NCBI GenBank assembly: GCA_019637315.1
Contig: JAHBVU010000013.1
Coordinates: forward strand, 1 to 40,120
Direction: 5' to 3'
Origin: Gemmatimonadales bacterium
Lineage (GTDB): Bacteria > Gemmatimonadota > Gemmatimonadetes > Gemmatimonadales > GWC2-71-9
Length of the DNA stretch: 40,120 nucleotides
Shown here: piece after piece, positions 4,025 to 7,962 of the stretch
Layout of the letters: every line of letters begins with the position of its first letter
Numbering within the stretch: position 1 is the stretch's first letter
The notes under the pieces: generated by a model
Told to the model about the DNA's origin: nothing
The model's database searches: none
Seen by the model: the letters and a program-made list of their open reading frames with translations, nothing else
Position numbers and translations under genes: made by a program

Positions 4025-6298
4025 TCACGGGTTGATCGGATACGTCGCCCGGCCTCGCCGCCCGCGTATCACCATGAATGTGTCCTCGACCTGCACGGTG
4101 ACGGTACCGTCCTGATCGGTCCGCCAGAGGGCTGCGCCGGCAGCCGCCAGCCGCTCGAGCGCTTCGGGCGTCGGGTGACCGTAGCGGTTGGCGGCCCCAA
4201 CACTGATCACCGCCACCGTCGGCCGCAGCGCACCGAGCAATGCCTCGCCGCTGGCAGTCCGGGACCCATGATGCCCCACCTTGAGCAGCTCCGTCCGACC
4301 GAGTCGCTCTGCGAGCGCCTCCTCGACCGGGAACCCCGCATCGCCGGGAAAGAGCGCCTGAAAATCGCCCGCCGAAATGCGGAGCACCGAGGAGTCCTCG
4401 TTGAGGTCAAGGCCCCAGTCGCTCCACGTCGTATCCGGATGGAGCGCCTCGATGGTAATGCCGTCGATCGCCAGGCGCGCACCGGCCCTGAGCGGCAACC
4501 AGCTGACACCGCGGTCCGCAATGCCGTCGAGCAGCGCAAGGTAGCCCTGATCCGGCACCCGCACGGCCGGCTCAAAGACTCGGCCCACGGGCATCGCGTC
4601 GAGCACAGCCTCGAGTCCGCCGTAGTGATCCCGGTGCCCGTGGGACACGAAGACGGCTTCGAGCCGGCGAACACCCTGTCGCCTGAGGTACGGAACGATG
4701 ACTCGCCGGCCCGCGTCGTACTGGCGGTCAGCCGGGCCGGCGTCGATCAGCATCCAGCGACCGGCCGGGGTCTCGATCAGCGCGGCATCGCCCTGCCCGA
4801 CGTCGAGAAAATGTAACGTCAGCCGGGACCCCGTGTGAGCCACCGGAAGCCACGCCGCCAGCGAATGAAGCGAGCCCAGCACCGCCCCAATCCAGATCAG
4901 GCGTCGGCCGGCCTCACGCGCGGTCTGACGGTTCCCGAAGACCAGGACCGTCGCGGCTACGACAGCCGCAGCCACCAGAGCCGGCCGGAGCCCGGCCTCG
5001 AAGACCATCGCCGCGCCCGGCGCGCCACCGCCACGAACCGCCAGGTATTCCAGTCCGGCCATCAGCGTCCCGCCACCCGCTGCAAACGCCCCGGCAACCG
5101 CCGGCAGCACCGGCCCGACGATCAGGCTCGCAATCACGGCAGGCACCGCAAACGCGGTCATCGGGATGGCGACGAGATTGAGCAGCACCCCAGCCACGGG
5201 CACGGTGCCGAAAACCCAGGCAGTCAGCGGCGCCGTCGCCAGCGTGGCGCCGATCGATCCGGCGATCACCCGTGACCACTGGCTCGCCCCGAGCGCACGA
5301 TCGCTCCAGCGGCTCGCCGCAGTCGCACCCCAGAGCGCTGTGACGGAGAGCCACGCACCGAGGCTGCTGACCGCCCACGGGTCGATCAGCAACACGCCGA
5401 ACGCGACCGCCGCAAAGAGCGCACCGGTCGACGGATTACGCTGGCGCTGCCGTTCGATTGCCAGCACGATGGCCAGGAGCGAGGCGCGGACGGCCGGCGG
5501 CTCGGCACCGACGAAGATGACGTAGCCGACCACGACGATGGCCGCGCCGATCGGCGCTCGCCGGCCCAAGCCGCCTGCCCGCAAGATGAGCATGGCCCAG
5601 CCCCAGACGAGCCCGACATGGAAGCCACTGATGGACAGCAGGTGGACCAGCCCGGAACGGCTGAAGGCATCGCCTAACGTCGGGTCGATGGTGCCCCGCG
5701 TGCCAAGCACCAGCGCCTGGATCACCCCGGACCTGCCCCCGTAGAGCGTGCCGGTGCTGCGTAGCAGGCGATTGCGGAGCCGGGCCTCGAAGCCGGCGGC
5801 GGCGGTGGAGTCGAGCACCGTGACGCTGCGCACGGCCAGAACGCCCGCCCCGGCCCGCCACAGACTGCGACGCGGCCGCCAGCTCCCCTCGAGCACCAGG
5901 CGCGCCCCGGCCCAGAGCGTGTCGGCCTGGCGATGCCGCACCATCACGACCCCGGCACACCCGGCACCCTGCGGCTCGACTGCGCCGAGCTGCCCGGACG
6001 GCGTCGGCTCCCGAACCAGCACCTCGAGCCGATAGGCCGCCTCGGTCATCCGCTCGGCGCAACGCCCTGCGTCCAGACGCCGCGCCAAGTGGCCGTGTCC
6101 CGCCCCCGCCGCGACGATGACGCCCAGCACCGCAGCGTGGGATCGGCGATAACCGAACCAGGCGACCAGCGCGCCGGCAGTACCGACGGTTCCGACGGCC
6201 AGCCCGACCACAGGATAACGCAGCAACCCGGCCGCGACGCCGGTGACAAACGTCGCCAGGCCGATCACCGCCGGCGACGGCAAACGAATGGGGAGCAC
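4025..6298 (-). CDS. comEC: ComEC/Rec2 DNA uptake channel
   Basis: The 757-aa protein has the full three-part ComEC plan: N-terminal membrane segments with the soluble OB-like (DUF4131) region to about residue 170, a central multi-helix Competence domain containing [17 protein letters not shown] (about 215-235), and a C-terminal metallo-beta-lactamase domain starting at [17 protein letters not shown]. The metal motif HGHRDH is at about residue 556, followed by FPGDAG and KVGHHGSR. In characterised species this protein carries single-stranded DNA across the inner membrane during natural transformation; the MBL domain is thought to degrade the non-transported strand. The GTG at 6298 is the best start available, but it has no clear ribosome binding site and sits in one arm of a perfect hairpin. 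comFB lies just upstream. Confidence 0.95.
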
Positions 6299-6320
6299 GG
6301 TTCAGAGTACCGTGCTCCCC
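6290..6320 (-). promoter_or_regulatory. Perfect inverted repeat spanning the comEC start
   Basis: GGGGAGCACGGT at 6290-6301 and ACCGTGCTCCCC at 6309-6320 pair perfectly over 12 bp around a 7-base loop. In the comEC mRNA the 3' arm contains the GTG initiation codon and the first codons; the 5' arm supplies the only purine-rich GGGGAG near the start. No U-run follows, so it does not look like an intrinsic terminator. It could be an mRNA hairpin that limits comEC translation, or a DNA operator. The structure is read from sequence; the role is inferred. Confidence 0.6.
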
Positions 6321-6370
6321 CTGGCTGCCGGGTACCATTCCGGTATTCGGCGGATCAAATCAGCGCGTTA

Positions 6371-6652
6371 TCAGGCGTAGGTGCTGCTGCCGCACCGCGG
6401 CGACATGGTGACCCGGCGAAACCCATCCATCACGGCAACGTCGATCGAGGCGCGACCCTGCTGTTTGTCCAGGCTCACCTCGGTGACCACCGCACCCTCC
6501 AGCGTCGCCACGTACCGGGGCGGCAGCCGGTTGAGCGCATACACGATCACGTCGGCGCGGCACATTTCACAGCCGCAGAACTCGGGGAAATGCGGCCGCA
6601 AGCTCGCATAGGCCTCGACCACGTGATCCTCGACCGCATTCTTGAGTTTCAT
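6371..6652 (-). CDS. ComFB-family protein (late competence development)
   Basis: The 93-aa protein matches the ComFB family: it opens with LKNAVEDHVVEAYASLRPHF, has the cysteine cluster FCGCEMCRADVIVYALN, then LPPRYVATLEGAVV, and a further Cys at PRCGSS near the C terminus. These cysteines are the likely zinc ligands. The family takes its name from the second gene of the Bacillus comF operon, and members elsewhere have been reported as cyclic-dinucleotide-binding regulators; whether this one binds such a ligand is not visible. The ATG at 6652 overlaps the miaB stop as TGATG, so a GTG one codon upstream is less likely. The comEC gene begins 72 bp downstream, which supports a role in DNA uptake. 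Confidence 0.85.
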   Translation of the reverse strand: MKLKNAVEDHVVEAYASLRPHFPEFCGCEMCRADVIVYALNRLPPRYVATLEGAVVTEVSLDKQQGRASIDVAVMDGFRRVTMSPRCGSSTYA

Positions 6653-7962
6653 CACAAAACCGCCAGAGAGTGCCCAGCTACCGTTGTCCCCGTGTACGTC
6701 GATCCTGTCGTGCCCGTCAAGCGGACCGTCCGATACTCACCAACCGACTCGGGCCCCAAGTCGAGCAGCACCATCAGATTGGTTCGAGTCCGCGCCAGCA
6801 TGCCGCCGCGCTTGGCCGGCTGCTCCACCAGCACCTCGTGTACCGTCCCGACCCGCTCGTGGTTCTTCCGACGCGACTGGGCCCGAACCACCCCGATCAA
6901 CCGATCGAGCCGGTCGGCCGAGACGTCGTCGGGCACATGATCCTTGAGCCGAGTCGCCGGGGTTCCGTCTCGCGGCGAGTAGCGGAAGGTGTAGGCATCG
7001 TCGAACCCCGCCTCGCCGACCAGGCTCACCGTTTCGGCAAACTGCTCCTCGGTCTCACCCGGGAAGCCGACGATGATATCGGTTGAAAAGGTCATGCCAG
7101 GAATGGCGTCGCGCAGCTGCTGCACCACCTCGAGGTAGCGCTCCCGCGTGTAGCGCCTCAGCATCCGCCGCAGCACGGCGTCCGACCCGCTCTGCACCGG
7201 CAGATGCACATGTTCGCACACCGCGGGCGTCTCGGCCATCGCGGCAATCACGACCGGGGTGAAGTCGGTCGGATAGGGGCTGGTAAAGCGCAAGCGGCGG
7301 ATGCCATCGACCGCCCCGACCGCACGGAGCAGGGCCGCAAAGTCCGACTCGCCATCATGATACGAGTTGACCGTCTGCCCCAGCAGGGTCACTTCCGACA
7401 CCCCGGATCCGGCCAGGACCTCGACCTCACGCACCACGTCGGCCAGCCGCCGGCTGCGTTCCGGGCCGCGAGTGGTCGGCACGATACAAAAGGTGCACTT
7501 GTAGTCGCAGCCGCGCTGAACCGTGACGAACGCTTTGGGGCCGGCGTCTCGGGCCGCGGGCACATCCTCGTAATGCTCCCAGGAGCGAAACGTGGTATCG
7601 GCGCCACGGACGCCCGATTCGGCATCGTGAATCAGAGTGGGCAAGTTGCGATAGGCATCGGGGCCAACCACCAGGTCCAGTTTGGGAACCCGATCGAGCA
7701 GGTCGGTCCCGAGTCGTTGCGCCATGCAGCCGACGACGCCGAGCACCGACCCGGGCCGCTTGTAGCGCTGCAGCTCCCCGACCCGCCCCACGACGCGCTG
7801 CTCGGCATGATCCCGCACCGCGCAGGTATTGACGAGCATGATGTCGGCCGCCGCCGGATCGTCGACCCGATCGTACCCATGCTCACCAAGCACACCGAAC
7901 ATCAGCTCGGTGTCGGCGGCATTCATCTGGCAGCCGTAGGTCTCGATGTAGACCCGCTTCAT
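6652..7962 (-). CDS. miaB: tRNA-2-methylthio-N6-dimethylallyladenosine synthase
   Basis: A 436-aa radical-SAM methylthiotransferase with the normal three domains. The N-terminal UPF0004 domain begins KRVYIETYGCQMN and carries the three auxiliary-cluster cysteines (YGCQMN, NTCAVRD, GCMAQ). The radical SAM cluster is RGCDYKCTFCIVPTTRGPE near residue 150. The C-terminal TRAM domain ends with TGTTVAGHSLAV. The enzyme adds the 2-methylthio group to i6A37 (ms2i6A37) of tRNAs that read codons starting with U. GAGGA lies about nine bases before the ATG. It follows the barrel gene by 12 bp and overlaps comFB, so it is probably co-transcribed with both. Confidence 0.95.
   Translation of the reverse strand: MKRVYIETYGCQMNAADTELMFGVLGEHGYDRVDDPAAADIMLVNTCAVRDHAEQRVVGRVGELQRYKRPGSVLGVVGCMAQRLGTDLLDRVPKLDLVVGPDAYRNLPTLIHDAESGVRGADTTFRSWEHYEDVPAARDAGPKAFVTVQRGCDYKCTFCIVPTTRGPERSRRLADVVREVEVLAGSGVSEVTLLGQTVNSYHDGESDFAALLRAVGAVDGIRRLRFTSPYPTDFTPVVIAAMAETPAVCEHVHLPVQSGSDAVLRRMLRRYTRERYLEVVQQLRDAIPGMTFSTDIIVGFPGETEEQFAETVSLVGEAGFDDAYTFRYSPRDGTPATRLKDHVPDDVSADRLDRLIGVVRAQSRRKNHERVGTVHEVLVEQPAKRGGMLARTRTNLMVLLDLGPESVGEYRTVRLTGTTGSTYTGTTVAGHSLAVL

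Follow-up and report, generated by a model that had tools for sequence, protein, structure and literature searches.

Gemmatimonadota are bacteria of soil and lakes, and the DNA considered here (the window, by which we mean the whole stretch of 40,120 nucleotides that was analysed) is one contig of a Gemmatimonadales genome of 3.91 Mb in 36 contigs. On its minus strand lie, in order, miaB, comFB, comEC and a fructose-bisphosphatase-like reading frame (Table 1). ComEC is the inner-membrane channel for DNA import, common to naturally competent bacteria, and the product encoded here has both of the domains expected of such a channel. The small protein encoded before it matches the ComFB profile PF10719 over positions 1-83 of 83 (E 6.9e-20; 71.3 bits against a cut-off of 25) and Bacillus ComFB 4wai (E 8e-9), and it has an ALNRLPPxY stretch in common with CdgR 8hja (E 0.022). 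Coordinates and profile matches together confirm what the first-pass annotation had read from the letters, namely that comFB starts at the end of miaB and that a gap of 72 nt separates the comFB stop from comEC. No start of comEC before the GTG is usable, because an in-frame TGA (6304-6302) stands one codon upstream (TGA ACC GTG); this GTG is kept in five of five genus members, and an in-frame stop lies shortly upstream in four of the five.

Table 1. Features of the miaB-comFB-comEC locus, in positions of the window
Feature	Positions	Strand	Remarks
miaB	6652..7962	-	housekeeping gene upstream, same strand as comFB and comEC
comFB (PF10719)	6371..6655	-	94 aa; start GTG 6655 or ATG 6652; overlaps miaB stop
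comFB-comEC spacer	6299..6370	-	72 nt
comEC	4025..6298	-	757 aa; Competence domain (PF03772) and metallo-beta-lactamase domain (Lactamase_B)
GTG start codon of comEC	6296..6298	-	within 3' arm of hairpin
12-bp perfect hairpin at comEC start	6290..6320	-	5' arm 6320-6309, loop 6308-6302, 3' arm 6301-6290
TACTCT, possible leaderless -10 box for comEC	6304..6309	-	mostly in hairpin loop; inferred
comEC codons FVTGVAAGL, first membrane helix	6224..6250	-	second hairpin of sister genera absent here

That start codon had been described as lying in one arm of a perfect 12-bp hairpin, with the only nearby purine-rich stretch in the other, and the first half of this description holds: the arms, 5' GGGGAGCACGGT and 3' ACCGTGCTCCCC, are 100% complementary over 12 pairs, enclose a 7-nt loop (ACTCTGA) and have a fold z of -3.4. 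The second half is doubtful if the purine run is meant as a ribosome-binding site, which it probably is not, because GGGGGAG is at least 16 nt from the GTG, outside the genome's Shine-Dalgarno peak at approximately -13 to -8; the same distance rules out sequestration of a Shine-Dalgarno sequence by that arm. The hairpin is present once in the genome, which also rules out a repeat element. Structures of this kind are scarce in the source genome, where perfect stems of at least 11 bp number 29 in 760 kb, 24 of them non-coding. Among 1298 predicted starts in the stretches, totalling 1.56 Mb, from which our background statistics were taken, fewer have a stem that places the start codon in its 3' arm than is the case at sites displaced by approximately 30 nt; for comEC and selO alone does such an arm score at least 9. 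No Rfam family matched the window or five relatives at the gathering score, the best sub-threshold match being at chance level, and we found no published report of a hairpin at a comEC start.

Comparable hairpins cover the comEC GTG in G002, G003, G004 and G005; comEC was not found in G001, and our comparison within the genus is of five members only, four of which align without gaps. In those four, 95.8% of the cells of the 12 pairs are paired and 4 of the 12 pairs have changed on both sides, a level of covariation that was matched by 2 of 500 shuffles and a signal that is destroyed when the partners are slid against each other. That is, the compensatory arm changes that one would look for in relatives are there, and with a start codon that is paired or in the loop they are what a start-sequestering structure should display. 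The stem extends to 16 bp in G004, is bulged in G005, and in G003 has one mismatch, one G-U and an open outer pair; the letters CCGTG, which include the start codon, are invariant across the genus. Two observations on gene content belong here. The comFB of G003 (L035) has an in-frame internal deletion that removes its Cys/ALNRLPP core and leaves approximately 34 codons, and DprA was found in four of five congeners and not in the source genome (G000), where its absence is probably an assembly gap.

Is this structure peculiar to one genus? Loci from relatives were collected by search with a ComFB alignment, mostly from draft metagenome assemblies with predicted starts, and when their 5' regions are folded, the start codon of many comECs is found in, or at the loop edge of, a GC-rich hairpin, as in TAGGCGGCC-ATGC-GGCCGCCTA, GGACCCGG-GTGATG-CCGGGTCC and GCGGGCG-GATGA-CGCCCGC. 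Some lineages share arms; between others the arms are unrelated, yet complementary. An ungapped stem scoring at least 6 stands at the start codon of 45% of 55 comECs and one scoring at least 7 at 33%, figures that come from an automatic choice of starts among relatives that are not statistically independent, which is why a Fisher test on them is not to be taken at face value. For controls taken from the same loci, the corresponding values are 2% and 0% at 50 miaB starts and 0% at 47 comFB starts, so that stems at comEC starts are enriched approximately 20-fold, and at the 1298 starts of G000 they are 2.2% and 0.8%. The 55% of comECs that score below 6 do so partly from mismatches, unusual starts or misassigned starts; in G005, for example, the automatic choice took a downstream GTG and thereby missed the bulged hairpin. 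A comEC mRNA that repeatedly folds at its start, keeping the fold while the letters change, suggests that DNA uptake may be held back by RNA structure. The translational hold on comEC that had been proposed from the window alone is, with start hairpins so strongly over-represented, a plausible one, and what has been shown is the fold and its conservation.

How might such a hold work? We propose that the hairpin, acting in cis, would hide the comEC start on mRNA that is read through from miaB and comFB, which are presumably constitutive, so that the default state would be one in which synthesis of the DNA channel is off or low. In 49 other loci the distance from the upstream stop (that of comFB, or of miaB where comFB is absent) to the comEC start has a median of 16 nt, and 42 of the 49 lie between -8 and 35 nt. 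With stop and start this close in most relatives, a ribosome finishing comFB or miaB could melt the hairpin, and initiation would be coupled. The genus of the window differs in that the comFB-comEC gap is 71-86 nt in five members, not the close upstream stop that translational coupling calls for; the hairpin begins 50 nt past the comFB stop and is stronger than in relatives, so that simple coupling should fail and the read-through mRNA should be silent. There, synthesis of ComEC would depend chiefly on a leaderless transcript of the gene itself, with the -10 box in the hairpin loop; a transcript that begins at the GTG has no 5' arm, and the hairpin therefore cannot fold on it. We regard this reading, in which the start hairpin silences read-through comEC mRNA, with coupling in relatives and a leaderless bypass in the window's genus, as having an even chance of being correct.

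The leaderless part draws on a signal that is general in the source genome. When starts are chosen without bias (another count favoured TANNNT in choosing them), TANNNT and TANNTT peak at -12 of starts, TANNNT being present there at 15 of 634 starts against approximately 3-4 at neighbouring positions, and a clear class of leaderless genes stands out in the 760 kb to 1.56 Mb sampled, genes that lack a Shine-Dalgarno sequence and have TANNTT at -12, with the box ending about 6 nt before the start. The match at comEC is weak, TACTCT rather than TANNTT and at -11 rather than -12, also with no Shine-Dalgarno sequence. Three of the five members of the genus have a TANNNT-like box in the loop, at -11 or -12, and in the others it is weaker. 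By position weight matrix (PWM) the loop site scores within the top 0.5-3.4% of control positions in four of five, the exception being G003, which we count as having no -10-like box. The other gene of this layout is selO (PF02696; L073, G000:C4), where a perfect 11-bp inverted repeat at 4665-4697 has the ATG in its 3' arm and a -10 box, TACCTT, in its loop; in congeners, selO keeps the leaderless start and has a terminator-like hairpin just upstream of it. A theme common to comEC and selO would be that of a gene insulated from transcription arriving from its neighbour.

Most sister genera have a second hairpin, GGCCGGTC-TCGC-GACCGGCC followed by a T-rich tract, approximately 30-65 nt past the comFB stop and within the codons of the first membrane helix of ComEC. 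Under a null drawn from the codon usage of the genome concerned, 0.13 of 30 sequences would be expected to have all 8 pairs of the stem, and 17 have them; the 15 nt after the stem hold 6.5 T where 4.9 would be expected (z 12), with a run of T8 in G027. In a set of 33 comECs with a median protein identity of 35%, the codons of the stem are nearly fixed (GCC in 32 of 32, GGC in 32 of 33, GGG in 25 of 27 and ACC in 18 of 18; z 9-12.5), and the columns beyond it have a mean z of 0.28 (s.d. 1.33, maximum 5.2). A synonymous third base covaries with a first base that changes the amino acid, the pair being UA in 19, CG in 12 and UG in 2. The codon null and the control of the rest of the gene rule out a by-product of GC-rich Gly-Ala helix codons. 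The motif occurs approximately once per genome; two copies are present in G061 and in G018, the latter having two comFB genes as well.

Carriers of the coding hairpin include L166, L167, L171 and L209; neither family f2 nor the genus of the window has it. In four f2 loci (L178, L179, L211 and L220) a different stem, CGCCGCC...GGCGGCG, whose loop is longer, may form in the same comEC helix codons, and L006 (G007) has a CATTGCGAGCGAAGCGAAGC-type repeat inside the comEC frame about 230-310 nt past the comFB stop. In a MiaB tree, the genus of the window is one clade nested among carriers of the coding hairpin, and most simply, therefore, it has lost that hairpin. The stronger start hairpin, we infer, may have taken over its role.

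These coding hairpins are also where the most durable of the competing explanations has its strength. The hairpin of the window might be a terminator or 3'-end stabiliser of miaB-comFB that merely overlaps the comEC start, and intrinsic termination or attenuation might likewise explain the coding hairpin of relatives. By structure the 8-bp coding hairpin is of that kind, a GC stem with a T tract that in most sister genera goes against codon preference, and it may terminate; it lies 32-65 nt past the comFB stop, close to the 50 nt of the window's hairpin; a terminator placed within the first 100 bp of a coding region can be functional (PMC4824070); the start of selO orthologues is closely preceded by hairpins that resemble terminators; and a 12-bp stem could itself terminate. 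At the comEC start of the window's genus, however, the GC stems have no consistent T tract after them (ATTCGTTTG, GTTTCGTTC, GTCCGCGTT, GTCCGCGTT and GATGTGCGG), and a hairpin centred on a start codon is not what one expects of a terminator. We think termination an unlikely account of the whole, with a better chance for the coding hairpin than for that at the start. A reading that joins both hairpins is also possible, and we put it forward only tentatively: comEC might stand behind a ComFB-independent gate of two parts, a start hairpin whose letters turn over and a terminator-like coding hairpin, of which the window's genus would have lost the second and rebuilt the first around a leaderless promoter, so that only the gene's own short transcript could be translated.

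A palindrome could, of course, act as double-stranded DNA, here as an operator bound by a repressor around the comEC promoter, and its perfection, its centring on the possible -10 box and the constancy of CCGTG in the genus would all suit that role. Between congeners, however, a change in one half goes with a change in the other, there are G-U cells, the constant CCGTG includes the start codon, and the arms are unrelated in other genera, so we find an operator quite improbable.

A further reading is that of a module in which ComFB, perhaps in response to a second messenger, tunes the translation of comEC, as the first-pass annotation had suggested. The adjacency on which that suggestion drew is real: the order miaB-comFB-comEC is conserved in the taxonomic order, tblastn places comEC downstream in 26 of 29 comFB loci of relatives, and two of the 29, cut by contig ends, still show comEC codons. 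At L031 (G052) the usual place of comEC, directly after comFB, is taken by fbp. Both c-di-AMP and c-di-GMP are bound by cyanobacterial ComFB, which has an effect on competence (PMC12313861), and the source genome has eight GGDEF domains; it has no c-di-AMP cyclase that we could detect, which removes c-di-AMP as the candidate ligand and makes c-di-GMP the likelier one, if this ComFB binds any. The hairpins, however, persist where no comFB was detected. The coding hairpin is kept in all four such genomes (G023, G027, G029 and G033), a start hairpin is present in G023, G029 and G033, that of G023 being interrupted and of low score, and G003 keeps its start hairpin with a comFB reduced to some 34 codons. 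By these comparisons of sequence, ComFB is not required for the comEC hairpins, and a module tuned by ComFB and linked to a second messenger is left unsupported. The published effects of ComFB concern pilus proteins (PMC12313861), and in the ComFB literature that we found no RNA binding is described. Although the cyanobacterial ComFB/CdgR proteins (PMC12313861, PMC13075795) are of the same family as that of the window, their signalling is described with no RNA element, unlike the hairpin here, and the neighbours differ, being hfq in cyanobacteria, comFA/comFC in Bacillus and here miaB and comEC. We thus give very little credence to the idea that ComFB, with a cyclic dinucleotide bound, has the hairpin or the mRNA of comEC as its target. 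As for chance, long GC-rich stems do occur in the intergenic DNA of this 67% GC genome, and covarying conservation with an approximately 20-fold enrichment over same-loci controls leaves that idea almost nothing to stand on.

Silencing by the start hairpin, to return to the reading that we prefer, has precedents in its parts. Coupling by RNA unfolding is known, for example, from phage f1 genes VII/IX, where a hairpin occludes the downstream start and upstream translation opens it, and such coupling is lost when the stop lies well upstream of the hairpin (PMC12548453). Occlusion of a start is the same here; the differences are that comEC is the gene concerned, that the fold is kept through the order despite turnover of its arms, and that no coupling is to be expected from the spacing in the window's genus. 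In the fold-back inhibition of IS10 and IS50, mRNA that arrives from beyond the element folds so that the start is hidden, and the gene's own shorter transcript cannot do so. The logic is the same, with a chromosomal uptake gene in place of a transposase and an internal start site that is only predicted. In Legionella, RocR/RocC represses the translation of comEC by a trans-acting small RNA and a chaperone (PMC7811196); comEC would likewise be controlled after transcription here, by a structure in cis and with no small RNA known. Attenuators in coding sequence (of the pyrBI type, and early-gene terminators; PMC4824070) resemble the coding hairpin in that a structure like a terminator occupies the earliest codons; that hairpin belongs to sister genera and is lacking in the window, and it is a putative terminator.

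A structure whose pairing covariation has preserved through an order suggests that horizontal gene transfer in this largely uncultured phylum is controlled at the level of RNA. Our reading yields predictions that are specific and cheap, such as arm swaps and changes of spacing. In the coding hairpin, selection on the RNA has clearly prevailed over codon preference within the gene of a membrane protein.
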